A stretch of DNA of 64,000 nt from Tribonema minus (Eukaryota > Sar > Xanthophyceae > Tribonematales > Tribonemataceae): the NCBI GenBank assembly GCA_017506865.1, contig JAFCMP010000501.1, positions 744,001 to 808,000 on the forward strand. The letters run 5' to 3'. The position numbers and the translations under genes are program-made. Shown in pieces: positions 5,388 to 64,000 of the stretch. Within the stretch, counting starts at the first letter, position 1. Every line of letters begins with the position of its first letter. The notes beneath the pieces are model-generated. The model was not told the DNA's origin, did not search any database, and worked only from the letters and a program-made list of their open reading frames with translations.

Positions 5388-7456
5388 CTACTCCATGTTG
5401 CTGTGAAAGTCCACCCGCCGTTGGATGGCAATGGTGGCCTCTCCCCAGCTAGCCCGACACCTGACACGCTCCACAGTAACCATGTTGGTACGAGGCCCCG
5501 TGCGGAGCTCCTTTGTAACGCACAAAAACCAGCACCCTACCGGGCACTCTTCTGCTCTAAGCTGCACAGAGCTGAACAGGTCTCCGTCGAAAACGGTTGC
5601 GTGGATGATGACCAGCGCAAGATTGCGGTCGCTCCACCAGTCTGCACACCACAAGCACACAAAACACAGAACAACAAGCAATGTTACTGTACTTGTCGTC
5701 ATGGCGTGGAGAATTGAGGCACTTGGTGGAAAATGATAGATGGTGCTGCAGTGCACAACGGTATTGACAGTGCCCTTAGCAGTGGATTGCCACGCCAGGG
5801 GATACCCATCTCTGTGCAAGGAAAGCAGCTGCCAAGCAGGTGAATACTTCAAAAGCTTTTCACTCAAATACAGGCAGAACAAATCGTGGCCTGCCTGCCT
5901 GTATGTAAACACCTCACAGGTGGTCATATATGTGTTGAGCGGTGAATTTCATCTCGCTGCTATTTCAGCCCACTGCTACAGAACGCAGTCGCTCGTGAGC
6001 TCACTGCTACAGAACACAGTAAATAGCTTGTAAAACAATGCACAAGGAAGGCCCTCCCTTATACCTCCGGAGGTAGGGGGCGAGCGACCCCTCCTGACGA
6101 ACAGGTGTAAGTTGCACTCAAAGCGGGTCAGAGACCAAACTCCACTCAGCAAGTTTTGCGTGTTCAGATGCTTTTTCTTGCGGTGAACCTTTAATCATAA
6201 AGCACGTACTTGCAGCGGGCATGAATTCTGCCTTGCTGCTAGAAGGAGCTTTTCCTACCCCAAGCACATCCAAATGGCACCAGGTCTCAAACAGCACGGT
6301 CTGCGACACCTTCAAAGCCGTTACGCCCAACTTTGATTCTGAGGTGCAAAAAAAGTGGGACCATGATGAGAGCGGCCTGCAAGCCGTGAAGCGTGGCCGC
6401 AGGCTTGTGCCTGCAGTACGATAAGTGCCAAGCATCGATACGCTGCACACGCTCAGCGCCCCCTGTGCAGCAACACCCCACGCGCTGGAGAGCCAGCGCC
6501 AGAATAAGCTCGAGGCTTCCATGGTGTTCCCGCTGTCCCACCATTGGGGAGCAGCAACTAAACCCCTGCACGCTGATTGGTAAACGGTCGTGCCGTGCTG
6601 CCAGAGCAACTCGACCTCAGCGCGCTGATTGGTGGACGGTAGCAGCGATACGCATATGCGCGTACCCGTCAACGCAAAATTAGCAAGCCCAGATGCATCG
6701 GTAGTGTGGAGAATCGCGCGCGCTCCGAAAAACCTAAGAGGCTCGCGCCCGGAAGAGTCTCTCGCCTAAAAACATGAGGTTTCAGGCACGCAATGCGTAC
6801 CTCTCATTAAGATGATGCTCCACTCCTAAAACATGCGCTGCACTCAAATCTAGCGCGCAGCTTACCGATCTCAGTTATGTCGCCTTCCACAAAGCTGATG
6901 TTGCTTGTGGAACCCTCGTTGGCGCTTTGGGACTGCCACTGCGCCAGGTTTTCCTCCGCCTTCCTGTGCAAACCGCTCAGTATTTCTATTCCATAAGCTC
7001 TGTCGAATCGATGGGGTAGCCTGCAACACACCAGGCGACACAAACAACAGACGATAAAACCTGTTCAGTGATTGTGATAATATGCCGCTAAGTTAGGGCG
7101 CGTCTGAACAAACGAAAGCACGTTCCAGACTACCACCAATATGTCACTTCGCGCTGACTCAATGAACCCAGCATCACTTACGATGCCGCAAGAAGAGCCA
7201 GCCCCGCGCCAGATCCGATATCGACCAGCGTTCCTCCGTCCCTAAAGCCCATGTGCTTCGTGGCGATGCGCTCAACTAGCGCTGTTGTGTCGGTCATGCA
7301 TAACTCTCCATAAGCGAGCGATGTAGAGTTCATGCCCTGAGCTTCTCTACATTGTCTGCTGATGGCTTCTGCCAGCTCCACAGGAGACGCTGCCGCAAAG
7401 AGTGCCGTGAGTTCGCTGAGTCGAGCACCCAAAGACAATTCATCGATGTCTGGCAT
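5388..7456 (-). CDS. Small DOT1-like class I SAM-dependent methyltransferase
   Basis: Three exons on the minus strand: 7456-7182, 7020-6866 and 5641-5388 (TAG), giving 227 aa with phases that join exactly. It is built like the catalytic core of DOT1 histone-lysine methyltransferases: SLAYGELCMTDTTALVERI resembles the D1 loop, TLVDIGSGAGLALLAASL is SAM motif I, and YGIEILSGLHRKAEENLAQW matches motif II with its acidic residue. FVEGDITEIDWW leads to IIHATVFDGDLF, where the family has an N-S-T/C-F motif, and the chain ends in SWGEATIAIQRR. No chromatin-binding extension is present, so the substrate is uncertain: histone H3 is possible, another protein equally so. Intron 2 is 1.2 kb and holds only chance open frames. 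The gene is head-to-head with the coiled-coil gene at 7687. Confidence 0.82.
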
Positions 7457-7686
7457 GACGAGTCGACTCTCGGAAGCCTCAAACCCTGCCCCTCAAGCTC
7501 TAAATGTCACCCTGCGCCTGCTACCGCAGCACGGCCTGAGGCAGCAGCGGTCGCCCTCCGCCTGCTACCGCAGGCCTGAAAAAAAGTGTCCGTGTAAAAT
7601 TCAACTCTGAGTTGAGGTACATTGTGACAGTTGAGCATTTTTACAGAGCAGCGGTTCAGCACCTACCCTGCCAACAGACTACACAC
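7457..7686. promoter_or_regulatory. Shared 230-bp divergent promoter region (DOT1-like / coiled-coil gene)
   Basis: The start codons at 7456 (-) and 7687 (+) are 230 bp apart. An exact 15-bp direct repeat, CGCCTGCTACCGCAG, occurs at 7515-7529 and 7559-7573 (44-bp step), a plausible factor-binding pair. No TATA box is obvious. Confidence 0.5.
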
Positions 7687-10600
7687 ATGTCGCGGCTGAA
7701 CGTATCGTTTGCGGATGAGAACGACCTCCCGTTTCCCTTCGAATTCAGGGCGGCGGCCGCAGGCCCGTCTGTGAAGCCCAACAAAAGTGGTGCAGGAGCC
7801 AGAGCGCCGTTTGCGTCTCCCCTGAAGTTCACCAAGGCAGCAGTTGGGCCCACGGCAGGCCCTGCTCCTTTCAATTTTATCGCTGCCGCAGCCAAGCCGC
7901 CTGCGCCAGCACCGCAGAAGAGCAGGCCGGCTTCTGCGCTCAAGCCCCCGACATCTGCCATGAAGGCCAGGCAGCAACACAGGGTTGGCATCAAGGCCAT
8001 GCCCCTGACGCCATCAGCCAAGGGCACGGGGGACCCCCGCAGCACTGCCAAGAAGCGCCTGCACACGCCACGTGGCGCAGCTACTGGCACCCCCGTGACG
8101 TCCGCAGCCAAGGCTTACCTGTCCAAGAGCGTGAACAAGAACCTGCAGGCGGGCAGGGAGGCCAGAGCCGCGTGCATTGAGCAGAAGCGGGGCACTGCCC
8201 TGGAGCAGAAGCAGCAGTGGCAGCAGACCGTCTCTGAGTCGAAGCTGGAAATGGAGACGCGTATGGAGGAGGAGCGCATCGCCCTGCACGAGAGGAGGCG
8301 CATCGCTGATGAGACAACGCGCATCCGACAGGCCCACGAGACCCAAGCTCGCAAGGAGGAGGCCGAGAAACTGGAGAAGGAGAAAGAGGAGGAGAGGGCC
8401 GCCGCAAGGGAGGCTGAGGTGCGCATCAGGACTGCTGAGGCAGAGCGCCGCCGCCACAGCACCATGTACAAGGCAGAGGGCAGGGTTATGCAAGCGGAGG
8501 CTCAGGAGCGCGCACGCGAGCGCACGGAGCAGGAGCAGGTGGAGCGCTTCGACTGGACCCGCGACAACAGCGAGGCTGCGGCGACGGAGCGCGAGAGGGA
8601 GGCGCAGAGGCGCCGTCTCAGCACCGCGCTGCGCGCCAAGCAGCAGATCAAGGGCAGGGAGATGAAGGAGGCGCAGGCGATGGAGGTAATTGAGGAGGAG
8701 ACTGCGGACAGGGAGCTGACGACAGCCGCAGCGTCGGACGTGGCTGCGGCTAAGGCGCAGGAGGAGGCTCGGCGCCGGGCTTCGCTCATGGGCAGGACGT
8801 GAGTCTTAGTCGCATTTTGTGTTGATGCAGGGCCTGACCCTGGCGTCCCATAACTTGAAACTTGGTTCGCGTGTTTTGTGCCTCGTCAGTTTGACTCATT
8901 GGCGCTGCAAGGCGCGCAACGCATGCACATGTGTCTCATTGTAATTCCGTGCCTGTGCCTGCGTGCTGCAGTGACAAGTTCAAGGAAGAAATAGCCATGG
9001 ACAAAGAGGCCAAGCAGCTGCAGCACGAGCAACTCATTCAGGAGGTCGCTGACAAGCATGAGTCCAGGCTGGAGGAGGTCGCGTATGAGGAGCAGGAGCA
9101 GGAGAAGCGCCGCATGTCTCTGGCTGGCAGGTGATACGCCGTCTAACCCTAACCCTAATGTGACAAAGTGTCGTGATACGTAGTACATGCAGGCATGTGC
9201 GTGTGTTTGGTCCTGTTCTTGTACACTCTCGTGTAACTCATTGGTACAGCATGCACACGGTGGCCATAGTGGGTATGTATGTATGCTCATGTAGGTAGGT
9301 AAGGCTGCTAGTTAGCGCTTTCGACCCCCACATGCTCCAAATCAGTAGATGAGGGTGCTGTTGAAGCTGCAGCCGGTGTGCACATCACGGTCATGCCGCG
9401 AACCGAATGGCTGCAAGCCAACAGAAAGACAATCACAAACAACAGCGGACCGCATTCGAATGAGTAGATATGCTAGGGTGCTTTTGAAGCTGCAGCCGTT
9501 GTGCATATCATGTTCATGCCATGAATTGAATGGTTGCAAGCCACTCTTCAATACAAGCACACTCAATAACAACAGCAGACCGCATCTTGTCGCATTGTGT
9601 TGCCAATAAATTGCCGTGCATGCCTCACCAGCAACACAACCGTGCCTAACACGCATTTTTCTGCAGGGCCGAAATCGCCAAGGCCGATGCCCGGGAGCGC
9701 CGTGCCAACAGGCACCGCGCGGTGCTTGAAGTCGTGGCTGAGGTAGCTGAGAGGCAGGAATCGCGCGAAGACATTGCAGCCCATGCGGCCGAGCTCGACG
9801 AGGCCCGCCGCATGTCTCTGGCGGGGCGGCGCGTCTCGCACAGGCGCCAGGCTACGGAGGTGATAATCTATCTGGTGCCTGCTGTGATCAGTACACCTGC
9901 TCATTGCTCTTTATTGGCCTGTGACACCCTGAGTTGTCAATGATTAGTAGACACCCTGTGACTCTGCTGGTGACGGAGCTAGGGTTGAGATTAGGCAGCC
10001 ACAAAGGTCTGGCATCATGTGTGCGCAAGCCTCATCCCATTTCAAACTTTACGGCATAAATTGTCAGCCTTCTATGAATGGTTTTGTGACGGTGGTAATC
10101 ATGAAAGCAGTGAGTATGTGGTCCGCTTCTTTTACTCTCCAAGGCTTTGCTTGTAAATACGCACCAAGCGGTTCCATCACTTTTTTATGAGTTGTATATA
10201 TGCAGAGGCCTCTGTCAATGCAGTAGCCGTGTCTCAAACTGCTTTTCAGTACATCAACAGTCGCCTCAGGGGCCATGCATTCCATTGCCATCTCTCGCAA
10301 GCGTGTGTCAACCTGCATACATCGGGATACTGCTGTCTATGCCAATGCAAGTAGCTGTGTCTCACACTGCTTTTCAGTACATAAGCTGTCGCCTCAGGGG
10401 CCTTGCATTCCATTGCCACCTCCCGCAAGCGTGTGTCAACCTGCATACATAGGGATACTGCAATCTCACACTATTGTGTCAAACCATGCCCACGCCCCCC
10501 CAACTGCAGGCTGCAGCGGCAGCTGAGCAGGCCAGGGTAAAGGAGGCTGAGGACCGTGCCCTGGAAGCGGCTGCGCGCCGTGACGTGGAGGCTCACCGCA

Positions 10601-11623
10601 GTGCTCAGCAGGCGCGCGACAGGCTGTCCATGGTGGGCCGCCGCGCCGCAGACGTCGCCAACAAGGACATGCAGGTATGATGTAGGCATGATGAGGCTTT
10701 AGGGTTTGGTTAGCCATGGGCCATGCAGGTATGTAGGTATACGATAAGGATGCAGGGTATGTAGGCATACTGAGGGCATTCAGACATGTAGATAGTGTAA
10801 ATGCGCAAAAAAGGACACGTAGGTATCCACATATACATTCATAAGCATGTACTACTTCGAAGTACATGCCTATCAGAACACGCGAGTATGCAGGGATGGC
10901 AGGTCGCTCTGGACAAGCAGCAAATGAAGTTTGTGACAGTTGTTGAACGGGCATGATAACCAAAATCGAATGCGCCAGATCAAGCGCAAGTGCACTGTCC
11001 ACGCCGGTGACATGTGACAGGTCACTGTGAAGACAATGGTATGTATCATGATTTGAGGGGTACGCGGCGATGCACTGCACATGGGACGCAGGGCTGTGCT
11101 GCAGTTGTTCGTTGCAGTCCGTGATGTTGCAGTTGGCGCCAGAACCATTTGACATGCATCTTGGGAACGTAGGAGCTGGTGGGTCAACTCGCTCCTGATT
11201 GGGGGCCACTCTCTTCACGTGATCTGTTTTGGAAAACTGTGTATTGCAAGCACTTTCCTGAGCTGCCAATATGCTGCTTGTTCGGGACCCTCGATGAGCA
11301 TACTGCTGCACGGCTTCGATTTTGTAATGTGGACACAAAGCTGCAGCTGCAGCCTTGATCACCCATCAATGTGTTGGTTACCCACTACATGCAGACAGCG
11401 CTTCAAGCTATGCATGTAGCTCATCACACGACTACATCGCCACCGCTCTGTATATGGCCACACACAGGCGGCGATGGCCAAGATGGCTGCCGAAATTGCA
11501 GCTGAAGAACAGCGCCTGGCGCAGTGCGTCCGTGACGATGTGATGCGCGGCACCAGCAGATTGAGCGCCAGGGCTCAGCGCGCCGCCATGCGTGCACTCA
11601 AGCACACAGGGACGGACCTGTAG
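7687..11623 (+). CDS. Coiled-coil protein with exact 54-residue RRxS repeats
   Basis: Exons 7687-8798, 8972-9130, 9667-9859, 10510-10674 and 11468-11623 (TAG) encode 594 aa. The ATG at 7687 is chosen because the frame upstream has no ATG. Residues 1-150 are Ala/Pro/Lys-rich with several S/TP sites. From about 150 the chain is a highly charged E/R/K/A helix. Basic motifs end in Ser at residues 258 (RRRHS), 312 (RRRLS), 366 (RRRASLMGR), 420 (KRRMSLAGR), 474 (ARRMSLAGR) and 528 (RDRLSMVGR), every interval exactly 54. RRRIAD at 203-208 looks like a decayed earlier copy, and the last exon holds a loose copy. RRxS is the consensus for cAMP/cGMP-dependent kinases. I do not recognise the family. The charge and repeat suggest a filamentous or microtubule-associated protein, but that is inference. 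Confidence 0.82.
9344..9585 (+). repeat. Two-copy tandem duplication in intron 2 of the coiled-coil gene (about 119 bp)
   Basis: AGTAGAT..GGTGCT..TTGAAGCTGCAGCC begins at 9344 and again at 9463, and the two copies then stay alignable through AACAGC(G/A)GACCGCAT. They differ by scattered substitutions, so the duplication is not recent. Confidence 0.8.
10211..10466 (+). repeat. Two-copy tandem duplication in intron 3 of the coiled-coil gene (128 bp)
   Basis: GTAGC(C/T)GTGTCTCA(A/C)ACTGC begins at 10223 and 10351. The copies continue in register through CAAGCGTGTGTCAACCTGCA and a GGGATACTGC end. The step is 128 bp with a few percent divergence. Confidence 0.85.
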
Positions 11624-40141: not shown

Positions 40142-41986
<1,845 letters not shown>

Positions 41987-55400: not shown

Positions 55401-58137
55401 TGCAGATGACGGAATGGTTGAATGGTTGTGACCGTAATGCTGCACATGCATGCATGAAGGTTCGCTTCTTTGGAAGAATTATTACGTCCAATGCAAACAC
55501 AGAGTAGAGGCTCTTTAGTAACCCGGACCCTGTTGCGCGTCACCTGCATCTTCAGTGACTGAGCACTGATGCTGCTTTGGTTAACCATAACCCTAACCCT
55601 AACCCTGCTGTCACCTGCTTGGCAAGTGCCTCTTCCCGGCGTCTCTCCTCCTCAACAGCCTCAAGAGCAGCACGCCTCCTGTCCTCCTCCCATGCTCGCT
55701 TCTTGTTGGCAATGCGCGCAGCACGACGGGCCTCCTGGCGAGCACGTTTCTCTGTAGAGCACACGGGAACAATATGCAGTTGAATGTTACTTACCTGAAG
55801 TATGCGTGCGCATGTGCAATCTTACGTGCCAAACACGAGTTTGCATGTCCTTGACCATTTTTGACAGCGAGTATTTGCACATCAATGGTGCGTATGTCAT
55901 GCGCATCGCAATGAAGGGCATGCATGCCGCCCCACCACTATGACTGCTGTCGCTACCCAATCCCAACCTATCCTCACATTTGGCTGACAATATGTGTAGC
56001 AGGAGATAGATGGCAGAGTACCATAGGTACGTCATGAACATCATGAACATGTGCAAGGCAGTCCATTGGTGCCAGCGTGTCTGGGACTCCCTGATAGCGC
56101 ATGCAGTCCTTCTCGATGTGTCTAGGGTTAGGTTTTGCAACATATGGGTATGTACACTTGAAGTGTATGAGAATAATCAACGTGTACACCATGGACAATA
56201 CCTGAGCGCTGCTGCTCGAACCACTCCGCAGGCGTGAGCATGTCGAGAAACTCTTTGTAGCGCATGCAGTCCTCCAGGGCCTCCCTGTGCTTGGACATGT
56301 CGCTCTGCACCATTTGGATCTGCTGGTTGAGCTTCTTGATCTCCTGCACCTTGTCATTCTTGAGCTTGGTCTCTCGCTCCGCTCGCTTTATCGCCTGTAC
56401 TCAGGGGAATGCAGGGCTGATTGTCAATTACCTGGTGAATTCATGAGCTGTGGGCAGGTGGTTGTCACACCATTTCCTGACAATGAAACGTGTGTTGTCA
56501 TTTGCACAGCTCTTGTCTGACAGACGACAGGGCCTTGCTCTCTTGAAGCGCTACAGTACCTGAAGTATGCGACAATCGTCAAAAGCTTACTGAGGAGTCC
56601 CCCCAGCATCTGTCTGTGGCAAAAGATTCAAGAATACAACTCAATGGAGTTATTAGGTGAGCGTGTACAATGAGGTACTTCCAAGTATAAACTGTAGACT
56701 CTGTCCACAACACACCACTGCAGAGGGCCAGCTGCAGACGTGCATGCACAATGTACTTCATATAGGCCCTCACATTTGTTGCTCACAGATATCTTCAATA
56801 GTGGACTTGCCATCACTTGCCTTGCCCGTTCATTCATATACACATGGCTTGCACTCACCTCGTGCGCCTTCTTGTCGTTTTCCTTGAGAAACGTGTCAAA
56901 ACGCAGCGCATCCTCCTCAAGCATCTGCTCACTCTTCTTGAGGGCCTCCTCCTTCATTGTAGCCTGTGAGAACAACATAAAGTCAAAACTACAGTTACAT
57001 GGCAGCTACGGGCTAGCCTGAAGATCGTGGCCGCGTCATGCAACTCAATCCAGCATGCCGTGCCATGGCTGGAAAACTACCACACTACACACCCGCAGAC
57101 AGGTGATGCAACTAAATGCTACACATAGGGGCACAAAGCAATCAAACATTTGGCTCTCATGTGTTGCACTCCCAGGCAGTCAGTAGGTGCCGATGAGATC
57201 ATCCAGATTGAATGCAGAGGATGCTTGGCAGAATATGAACTAGTGTGGCAGATATAATGACGAGTCAATGACAAGGTGTTCGCGGCATGAGCACCCACAA
57301 ACACCGTAAAAAAGCTAGCTGCTTAACCTGTGCACAATGCGCACGGTCGACTCGGGCATTACCATTCATGCACAATCAAATGGTAAGAGATGGACCCACG
57401 CACAAGCCACACATGCTGGAGCTTGCATCCTATTAATTTGCAGGTAGCATGCAATTTTGGTTCGGTCGGCCTGCTGAACGCGCCTCGGCAGGAATGAACT
57501 TAGATATCTTGCACATTTTGTCATGCGTGTTGTCTCGTGAGGATGCAAACTCTTCTGAGCCCTTCTGCAGTCGTGTTTGTCGCTCTTTGCTACTTGCGGG
57601 CTCTATTGGCAATTCATACTTTTCATCAATAGTGCACGAAACGCCTCGTGGCTGTTGTGATAATAAACTTGAAGTAGGTTTTTGAGAGGAGCTCACCTTC
57701 TCCTCAAGCTTTCGTATCTCCTCTCTCTTAGTGTCCAGGCTCATCTGCACCAGAAACATCTCCCTCTTCTTGGCTATCAAGTCAGCCATACTCTCCTTGT
57801 CCTGCACCTGTCGCCTCTGCTTGAACAAGCCCGAAGCAGCATGTGGAGGTGCTGCTTTGCCGCTGGCAGCACTATTGGCGCCCACGATGCCAGTCCCTGC
57901 CTCCCGGAGCATGGCTCCTAGCTTGCGGCTAGTTGTGACATTGGTGGTCAGCCCCTTCTCCCATATCTTCTGGCTCTTGCGCAACTCTCGCTGCTCCAGG
58001 CGCTCTTTCTTCTCCTCGTCTCTGAGGCGGAAGACCTCTTCGTCACTAGGCAGTGTGAAGGGGTTGCGCTGTTGTGATGGGTCCTGCAGCATATCATCGA
58101 TAGCATCTGCTGGCTGCACATCTGATGCAGCCGCCAT
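52483..58137 (-). CDS. CFAP100: CFAP100 / MIA1, axonemal inner-dynein regulatory coiled coil
   Basis: Eight minus-strand exons: 58137-57697, 56963-56859, 56394-56202, 55751-55615, 55392-55135, 54308-54069, 53442-53251 and 52665-52483 (TGA), 582 aa, phases consistent. CFAP100 (FAP100/MIA1 in Chlamydomonas) pairs with CFAP73 in the MIA complex at the base of inner dynein arm f and tunes ciliary beating. Diagnostic stretches, in order: NPFTLPSDEEVFRLRDEEKK; MADLIAKKREMFLVQMSLD; EEALKKSEQMLEEDALRFDT then FLKENDKKAHE (the DUF4200 core); MRYKEFLDMLTPAEWF; MYFADPAQLLDIFQALEEQN then LFLIQN; ETEHALEEL; REVYERCGFE. The C-terminus is basic then acidic. The ATG at 58137 is preferred over an upstream GTG in the same frame. 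The gene is divergent from the TTLL glycylase. Confidence 0.95.
55582..55606 (+). repeat. Interstitial telomere-like tract in a CFAP100 intron
   Basis: AACCATAACCCTAACCCTAA followed by CCCT: about three CCCTAA units lying within 10 bp of the donor-side end of the exon at 55615. Confidence 0.9.
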
Positions 58138-58346
58138 GGTGCCCGGAGCCACAGCTTGACTGTACGCTTCACCTTCTCTCCGGAAGTTGTAACGCCTGCA
58201 CGCCTTACGTGGGGTTCAGAAACTTCACAACAACGGATCAACTTTTGCGAGCCTCGGCCACAAGTGTGCCAGATATACTGACAGCATTCGTCGCGCCAGT
58301 AGTATCTCAAGTAGCACCATCTGCTGCCTCATTGGCAAAGTAGGTG
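58138..58346. promoter_or_regulatory. Shared 209-bp divergent promoter region of two ciliary genes
   Basis: Start codons of CFAP100 (58137, -) and the TTLL3/8 glycylase (58347, +) flank 209 bp. Joint activation during cilium assembly is a natural expectation. I could not identify an X-box-like palindrome with confidence. Confidence 0.5.
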
Positions 58347-61300: not shown

Positions 61301-64000
61301 CAGAGCCTGGACGGCACCAGCGACACGGCTGCAGCAGCAGCAGCGGCGGCTGCAGGCGGGACAGTGGCCACGGCGGCGGCGGCGCTGCCTTCATCACAGC
61401 TGTCGTTGCCCGATGCACGCGACTTCAACGACTGGAAGCGGCGGAACGGCCTCAGATCAGACGCCAAGGTGTTCATCATGACGGGCTGGTTCCCGTGCGT
61501 AAAGAACGCACTGCAGCAGCGCGGCTGGCACAACAACCCCGACCGCACGTCCCCCTTCTTTGACCTCCGCTGGGCGCTGCACAGCTCCGACAGATCCGCA
61601 GCAGCGCTGCAGCCGTGGCAGCTGAGCAACCACTTTGTGCGCAGCGTGGGCCTCACCACCAAGGCAGGCTTGCTGGACACCATGCGCAGCCTGCGCTGGC
61701 ACGTTAATGCCGACGGCGACAGCGTCTTCCCGCGCTGCTACAACCTGTCGGTGGACACGGACGCGCTGGCATTCATGGAGGACTTCAAGGTGACCGCAGC
61801 CACGAACGTGCTCAAGCACGTGTTGCTGCGCGCCGAGGGCAGGCCAGATGCGCAGGCGGAGTCAAAGCACAACGGCGACGCTGCAAGCGGTGACAAAGCG
61901 GCTGCAGCAGCCAGCAAGGGCTGGCCGGAAGCAAGCAGTGCGACAGCAGCAGCTGATGACAAGCCAGCTCCATCTCTGCCATGCAAGGAGGCTGATGGCA
62001 GCGGTGCTGCTGCTGCCGCTGCTGCTGCCGCAAGCGCCGCCACAGACACTAAGAGTGATGACGCCTCAGAGGGGACACTGGCTTCTGATGCGGCATCAGC
62101 GGCGGCACCAGTGGATGCGCATGCTGACAGCAAGACCGACAAGAGCGACACTCAACACGACTGCGCCAGCGGCAGCAGCAGTGTTTTAGAAGACAGCGAC
62201 TTGGAGAGTGACTATGGCGGTGACGTGCCTGCAACAGCGCTCAACCTGCCGTCCTCAATACGGCAGAACAGCAGTGGCGCGCACGCCCGACTCGTGTCTG
62301 CTAGGCTGCGGCAGTGGTCGCCCGAAGGCGCTCACTTCATGGTCAACGGCACCATTTTGGAGGCAGCACTGGCGGTGTGCATGCGGCGGGTGCGGCGAGC
62401 CAGCAGCTGTGGAGAATCTTGCAGTGGCAGAACAGGGGGGAGCGAGAATGCGGGTGAGTCACCAGTTGCATTGCATTGTGTCTAGACTCTTGTGATATAT
62501 TCCTTATAACTTGAAGTTGACGGCCTGGTGCAATGGCACCAACACTGATGAAAGTCACCAACAAGCAGCTGTTGGTACTAATGATTGCGAGCAAATGCAC
62601 TGGCAGCACGCCCCCTTCACGGTTGCCAAATGACAACGAACGGGTATTCACCGAAAGTCTGCAGCTCACAAATTGTCAAATACAACAGCAAGCTCATCTT
62701 CAGAAGCACGCTGCAAAAAGATGCATCAGTGATTGCAAAGCGGCGGTAAAGGTTATGGTTATGGTCACGGTTCTCCGCACTGCCCTAGGGCTAGGGTTAG
62801 GACGGCAAACGTAAGCATGACTTAACTTCTGCACAATCAACTTTGTACTGGTGTACTGGTGCAAGTAAATGTACCTTTCGGCGACCAACTATTGGACTAC
62901 ATCTCAAGTCCCGTAAAGGTGCATAACTTTGGGTGGCATGGTGCGGCAGGTTGCCATGAAATGCTCAGCCTATATGCTGTCATAATGAATGTCACTGCTG
63001 TGACCATCTCCGCTGCAACACATTGCAGTGTGACCAAAGATCCTTCAACAGATAATGTGGGGTTGCAAGCTGATGCATCATCTGAGCTGAGCTCATGCTG
63101 AGCACGAGAGTATGTTGATTTGTGTGTTGTTGGTGGTGGCCCTCCTCAACTTCAAGTGCACTGTCCGAATCTGCACGCTTTTACGAAACCTCACATCATG
63201 TGTTTGTGCCTTGCTGTTGCATCTTGGCAGACACAGACATGGACACGCCTGAGGGCGAAGAGCCCCTGGTATCCGCAGTGGAGTGGGAGCTTCTATGCCT
63301 GGCCACACACACCACCACCAACCACCCCGACCCTGACTTCACGGGTCTGTACCGTCGGCACACACTCCCCGACGCGCCGCCCCCAGCCCCGGATGCGGCA
63401 GCACTGTCCAAGGCACGCGACAGCGCCACCGCTGCGCCCGTTACCTCCCACGAATTCTATGAGGCGCGGCGCCGGCAGCAGGCGGAGGCGCGCAGGGCAG
63501 ACGTGCGGAGCGCCGCTGCACGCTCAAAGGCAGCAGAAGCCGTGTGGCAGGACGTATCGGTGCTGGGCAGCGGGCGGTTACAGCGCGTCAGGACGGCGCT
63601 CGCGGCGCTGAGGCGCGTGCACGCGCAGTTTGACCTCGACGGCACGTTCGGCCAGAACATCTGGATCATCAAGCCTGCGGCCAAGTCGCGGGGCCGCGGC
63701 ATATCGTGCTTTGCGGACCTGGGGAAGCTGCTGGAGTGCACGGAGACGCTGCACAAGGGGGGCGGCACGGGACTGGACCAGTGGGTGGTGCAGAAGTACA
63801 TTGAGAACCCGCTGCTGATATCGCGGCGCAAGTTCGACATCAGGCAGTGGGTGCTCGTCACCGACTGGAACCCCCTGACCGTCTACTTCTGCGACAAGTG
63901 CTACCTGCGCTTTGGCGTGGAGGACTACACGACCAGCACTTCTGCGCTGAGCAATGCGTACGTGCACCTGGTCAACAACTCCATCGGCAAGACGTCGGAC
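58347..64000 (+). CDS. TTLL3: Tubulin glycylase TTLL3/TTLL8-like, 3' end outside the window
   Basis: Exons 58347-59252, 59808-59978, 60392-62453 and 63231 to the window end, over 1300 codons. It adds glycine to tubulin tails in axonemes. The long N-terminal half is low-complexity and charged (DDFDAEEYLEDDD; RREEKRRRR; poly-Ala, poly-Gly and His/Gln tracts). The catalytic unit starts near residue 700 with DFNDWKRRNGLRSDAKVFIM, TGWFPCVKNALQQRGWHNN and SNHFVRSVGLTTKAGLLD, the TTLL3/8-specific region. It resumes in exon 4 after another Ala/Asp-rich insert: GQNIWIIKPAAKSRGRGIS (ATP-grasp), QWVVQKYIENPLLI, RKFDIRQWVLVTDWNPLTVY and VHLVNNSIGK. The closest known groups are the monoglycylases TTLL3 and TTLL8; which one cannot be decided. 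The metal-binding C-terminal part lies right of the window. Confidence 0.95.

Follow-up and report, generated by a model that had tools for sequence, protein, structure and literature searches.

In a 64,000-nucleotide stretch of the Tribonema minus genome (contig JAFCMP010000501.1, positions 744,001 to 808,000; the window), a gene on the + strand (7687-11623) encodes, in five exons and without internal stop, a protein of 594 amino acids with evenly spaced basic serine motifs. The R-x-S serines are located at residues 258, 312, 366, 420, 474 and 528, which gives five intervals of exactly 54 residues each. These positions and intervals had been put forward in an original prediction made from the sequence alone, and they were confirmed in the spliced frame. 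By analogy, a MAP7-like microtubule-associated protein with a repeated, lattice-matched binding helix is tentatively taken as the best single explanation.

When residues 171-594 were compared with themselves, lags 54, 108, 162 and 216 were the best four among 215, and the score at lag 54 was 0.632 (maximum of 300 shuffles, 0.256). Residues 178-594 contain eight R-x-S sites, six of which fall in one class modulo 54 (also modulo 27). In 2000 residue shuffles at most four sites came into phase, and six did so in 10 of 200,000 random placements of eight sites. The strict RRxS site that had been claimed for every unit is present in five of the six, while the sixth is RDRLS (D at -3, R at -2). The array consists of six units and is imperfect at its edges: the next R-x-S site (Ser576) comes 48 residues past Ser528, and the RRR cluster near residue 204, upstream of the array, is off register by three residues. 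An RRVS site at Ser481 is also out of phase with the array.

Introns 1, 2 and 3 interrupt intervals 3, 4 and 5, respectively, and intron 4 falls beyond Ser528, where it is irrelevant to the step. Frame-keeping, stop-free donor/acceptor pairs within about 45-60 bases (n = 26, 12, 76 and 30 at introns 1 to 4, GC donors included) were scored with a simple splice consensus. The splice pair of the gene model ranked top at all four introns, with a lead over the runner-up of 4, 2, 1 and 1 points. As had been claimed, the spacing is intact over the separate exons of the later units, the top-scoring pairs giving exactly 54. G+C at third codon positions is 0.73-0.79 in all five exons, and the G+C content of the introns is 49-54 %. 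An artefact of splice choice as the source of the exact spacing is disfavoured by the splice-pair scores together with these exon and intron values.

The assembly (158 Mb, 554 contigs) was also searched for paralogues. At E ≤ 1e-3 five matches were observed, all of them the gene's own exons (74 of 87 first-look candidates scored), and the gene is single copy at the sensitivity of this search.

Serine motifs and database searches

When the six units were compared pairwise, amino acid identity was 48 % in the motif (-5 to +5) and 17 % in the spacer, vs 13 % expected from composition. The consensus of PKA and Aurora kinases has basic residues at -3/-2. RR is found at these positions in five of the six sites, so that the predicted kinase consensus applies to all but the site with D at -3. 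At 100 degrees per residue, a helical wheel puts positions -4, -3 and +4 no more than 60 degrees away from the serine, with a basic residue in five, five and six units out of six, respectively; a phosphate on the serine would therefore enter a basic patch.

The homologue search proposed with the original prediction, aimed at conservation of the 54-residue step, turned up no homologue in the databases searched. Protein databases gave none at E ≤ 0.001 or E ≤ 10 among the 7993-7996 candidates richest in common words, a weak negative as E/R/A-rich words may have displaced true relatives among the scored candidates. In Pfam (E ≤ 1) one unrelated match was obtained (11.1 bits; cut-off 29.6 bits), and the Tau/MAP4 tubulin-binding, TPX2 and tektin domains were absent. 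The PDB sequence search (E ≤ 10) yielded three V-type ATP synthase subunit sequences alone (E 6.5-6.9) and no relative; the PDB includes entry 8GLV, the Chlamydomonas axoneme. A scan of viral contigs with exon 1 alone yielded 12 pattern matches, none of them a relative.

A sequence relation to three known families was considered, and none was found. For MAP7, neither a domain (Pfam) nor a chain (PDB, E ≤ 10) was matched. The MAP9-type motif would demand five copies of Phi-X-X-W-X-X-X-K, and residues 171-594 contain too few Trp for this (0.5 %, about two residues). INCENP had been raised by the charged helix and the Aurora-like sites, and no IN-box (PF03941) was found in Pfam at E ≤ 1; elsewhere in the same genome PF03941 exceeds the cut-off at two loci, both on other contigs.

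A helical scaffold or spacer rod, offering evenly placed phosphosites or docking sites to a non-tubulin partner (a kinase, a 14-3-3-like reader or a membrane or chromatin factor), would agree with the conservation of the motif rather than the spacer. The best copies, RRASL and RRMSL, also resemble the PKA substrate Kemptide, and neither Pfam nor the PDB gave a match to a tubulin-binding domain or chain. However, a flexible list of phosphosites has no need of a step that is exact in five of five intervals, and we regard a scaffold of this kind as rather unlikely.

Predicted helix and charge pattern

AlphaFold2 models were made from the single sequence of the exon 1 product (E/R/A-rich, through residue ~371). 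Residues 1-138 were modelled without secondary structure, with means of the predicted local distance difference test (pLDDT) of 39-49 in 10-residue blocks as far as residue 140, and residues 139-368 as a single helix. The fragment 140-370 modelled alone had a mean pLDDT of 89.4. The continuous helix claimed earlier is thus predicted over about the first half of the array, and beyond residue 368 we infer its continuation.

Charge (R/K minus D/E) was analyzed for periodicity by permutation. In residues 178-594 a period of 3.62 was observed with a power of 11.6, reached in none of 1000 permutations over 3.3-4.0; this range is the fairer test, as the narrower window of 3.60-3.62 was picked post hoc, after the peak had been seen. 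With the motifs masked the peak was still at 3.62 (power 8.6, fraction 0.01), and in the array alone it was at 3.61 both with the motifs (fraction 0.004) and with them masked (fraction 0.03). In the masked spacers the basic side is turned by about 45 degrees from that of the motifs. No charge periodicity was found in residues 1-177 (fraction 0.65; net charge +21) or in residues 178-228 (fraction 0.68).

It had further been claimed that all motifs share one face of the helix. This follows only at 3.60 residues per turn. At 3.62 each unit would turn the motif by about -30 degrees, which would call for a slow supercoil. The two values are inseparable at the estimated resolution of about 0.03 over 417 residues.

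Hydrophobic residues in 178-594 have a power of at most 0.1 at 3.5 and 3.6 (0.06 at 3.5), 2.7 at 3.667 and 5.3 at 3.9. In residues 529-582, near the C terminus, the power is 5.1 at 3.75. Given these 3.75-3.9 signals, the C-terminal end may have a pairing partner. A heptad coiled coil is disfavoured, as a signal at 3.5 is missing, yet a FAP100-like control stretch was also without a clear heptad peak; such a control is uninformative and makes the missing peak weak evidence, and the 3.75-3.9 signal is present. A strong excess of i to i+4 salt bridges is typical of very stable single helices. Here, acid-base pairs at i to i+4 are weakly enriched (E to R 23, z 1.7; R to E 20, z 0.8; 400 shuffles). 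Taken together, the models and the charge and hydrophobic analyses speak for a straight, charge-striped helix rather than a coiled coil, the C-terminal end being less settled.

Self-assembly into a filament was considered as well. Parallel or staggered helices with a stagger of 54 residues, intermediate-filament-like or as in a striated fibre, would have their register set by the charged motif. The long charge period in residues 229-552 (power 7.0 at 54, maximum 7.4 at 55.25) suits such an axial stagger, and the hydrophobic signals at 3.667, 3.9 and, near the C terminus, 3.75 permit local coiled-coil packing. The near absence of heptad power at 3.5 argues against it, though with the uninformative control, as does the composition of residues 171-594 (5 % Leu, 20 % Ala). 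We consider a filament of this type unlikely, more so than the scaffold.

Spacer divergence, step length and gene surroundings

Of 13 shifts tried, the in-register one gives the highest spacer identity (17.4 %), and the +4 shift comes nearly equal to it (17.2 %), as would be expected of a charge-striped helix. The spacer BLOSUM score in register (0.27) is likewise the best of 55 shifts, with the +4 shift second (0.18). DNA identity of the spacers is 33-45 % vs 33 % expected, and a residual match is found between the Ser420 and Ser474 units (37 % protein identity, 51 % DNA identity). From this low spacer identity, the units appear to be very old duplicates, or else to have hardly any common spacer ancestry.

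The introns are located at Ser+5, +4, +14 and +15 of the repeat unit, with phases paired 2,2 and 0,0. Within each phase pair the unit-relative position shifts by three bases, and the step of 54 is unaffected. When indel (insertion/deletion) rates of at least 1 % of substitutions were assumed, the probability of five unchanged intervals was ≤0.017. As the spacers have diverged, the motifs should have moved under these assumed rates, and the simplest reading of the sequence is that the length of the 54-residue step may be under selection. That a 162-base unit was simply duplicated in tandem, leaving the spacing as an unselected relic of its origin, seems distinctly improbable: the Ser420/Ser474 match, the top in-register BLOSUM score and the paired intron phases, which suggest unit duplication, would fit it, but spacer DNA so near expectation makes any duplicates old with a step yet unchanged, and intron positions within the unit shift while the step does not.

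Table 1 Features of the gene and of the window (positions in the window)
Feature	Position	Strand	Residues and remarks
Exon 1	7687..8798	+	residues 1-371 (codon 371 split with exon 2); Ser258, Ser312 and Ser366 motifs
Exon 2	8972..9130	+	residues 371-424; KRRMSLAGR motif, Ser420
Exon 3	9667..9859	+	residues 424-488; ARRMSLAGRR motif, Ser474
Exon 4	10510..10674	+	residues 489-543; RDRLSMVGRR motif, Ser528
Exon 5	11468..11623	+	residues 544-594 and stop; out-of-step SRLSARAQR, Ser576
Motif 1, ERRRHSTMYKA	8443..8475	+	residues 253-263, Ser258 central; position computed from residue number
Motif 2, QRRRLSTALRA	8605..8637	+	residues 307-317, Ser312; position computed from residue number
Motif 3, ARRRASLMGRT	8767..8798	+	residues 361-371, Ser366; last codon completed by exon 2; position computed
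N-terminal motif region	7738-7902	+	FEFRAAAAGPS, LKFTKAAVGPT, FNFIAAAAKPP
Duplication in intron 2	9349-9600	+	
Duplication in intron 3	10230-10460	+	
DOT1-like fragments	6807-7492	-	
Actin gene	40145-41188	-	profile positions 43-410 of 410
FAP100/CFAP100-like exon	57436-58215	-	DUF4200 match
Tubulin-tyrosine-ligase-like exon	63119-64000	+	continues past the end of the window

No ATG precedes the start codon of the 594-residue protein in its open frame, which extends upstream to 7540. In the basic N-terminal region, three similar motifs with S/T-P sites close by were spotted by eye, and from their sequence they are possible binding motifs. An imperfect direct duplication was likewise seen by eye inside each of introns 2 and 3. 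About 230 bases upstream of the start codon, fragments of a divergently transcribed DOT1-like methyltransferase gene begin on the other strand (25.2 bits, cut-off 23; the exon junction there was guessed).

Further away in the window, an exon of a FAP100/CFAP100 relative has 8glv_AW as its best PDB match (2.8e-17), and a tubulin-tyrosine-ligase-like exon is located at the window's end. The alga is likely to possess flagellar genes. An actin gene has most of its coding sequence in one open frame. Among the best 60 of its 107 PDB matches, the actins 1nlv and 3chw and a pollen actin outscore the chain common to 7ju4 and 8glv.

A proposed lattice-following helix and known microtubule binders

In the proposed mechanism, residues 1-138 would form a flexible, basic, Pro-rich region. 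Behind it would come an uninterrupted alpha-helix, about 450 residues long and mainly monomeric (66-68 nm if wholly helical). The helix would follow one protofilament, and six tubulin dimers in a row would each meet one basic R-R-x-S-L-x-G-R patch. The serine would adjoin the basic face. Negative charge added there to each contact, through phosphorylation by a basophilic kinase (PKA- or Aurora-like), would loosen the multivalent grip by degrees. In its most specific form, a single helix would read the axial tubulin lattice with a phosphorylatable basic clamp per dimer, over six dimers and about 48 nm per molecule, which we hold to be doubtful. The repeat of the axonemal inner proteins also spans about 48 nm, and an axonemal location of the protein is only a possibility.

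If this were true, the primary sequence would encode the axial tubulin period in helix residues, making the protein a direct molecular ruler equipped with its own switch. It would also illustrate how strictly selection can act on the length of a plain-looking E/R/A-rich sequence.

Several points weigh against a microtubule-following helix, and the original interpretation as a whole is partly supported. A direct tubulin link is missing from the Pfam and PDB searches, which matched no tubulin-binding domain or chain, and the step is known from one genome, as no homologue was found. The net charge of the array is about -4, so that tubulin binding would depend on local patches. Same-face helical repeats favour multiples of 18, and for 54 to meet 8 nm is not a rare coincidence. 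Gly is present at +3 in four of the six motifs and could mark a kink, and pLDDT dips to about 70-80 around motif 3 in both AlphaFold2 runs. To these are added the +4 shift, which equals the in-register spacer identity, the weak i to i+4 pairing, the hydrophobic power at 3.9 and, near the C terminus, at 3.75, and the FAP100-like control without a clear heptad peak.

For comparison with known systems we used excerpts of the papers cited below. Among open-access papers found with phrases on 54-residue repeats and lattice-matched helices, none was seen to describe the protein, a 54-residue helical step or a microtubule ruler of the proposed kind. MAP7 is the best analogue, with a 53-residue helix that runs parallel to the microtubule axis over about one tubulin dimer (PMC8985661), and its residues 63-151 cover about 13 nm (PMC10908866). 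At this rise 54 residues would span 7.9 nm, and the claimed match to about 8 nm agrees with the computed 7.9-8.1 nm of helix. As in MAP7, a long charged alpha-helix (here predicted for residues 139-368) is accompanied by a further region outside it. In the excerpts consulted, MAP7 differs in having one binding helix; the protein described here repeats its motif six times, every 54 residues, and each copy includes a serine.

Other known systems share single features. INCENP contains a charged single helix, once predicted to be a coiled coil, that binds microtubules (PMC4571873); the Tribonema protein likewise has a charged helix by prediction but no IN-box match. HURP binds with a short helix across beta-tubulin (PMC11549086), in contrast to MAP9. 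Tektins and other axonemal rulers have axial periods fitting the tubulin lattice (PMC4067180). The 54-residue step would likewise give an axial period near that of the lattice, but no tektin match was found in Pfam. Tau, MAP2 and MAP4 carry a phosphorylatable basic KXGS motif in each tubulin-spaced repeat, and the Tau repeats are about 31 residues long, extended and non-helical. The protein encoded here differs in its predicted helix, its 54-residue step and the absence of a Pfam match to this family.

MAP9 is a single extended helix with five tandem pseudo-repeats that fit successive tubulin sites; its Phi-X-X-W-X-X-X-K motifs are separated by 35-36-residue spacers, and the helix runs across protofilaments, around the microtubule (PMC12667982, preprint). 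Common to both would be one helix carrying several repeats at lattice spacing, while the motif here is RRxSLxGR and the longer step fits the axial dimer. In the excerpts consulted, helical microtubule binders rely either on a single binding helix, as MAP7 does, or on repeats that are spaced laterally, as in MAP9. By this analogy, an axial single-helix ruler would be the longitudinal, phospho-switchable counterpart to the lateral staple of MAP9.

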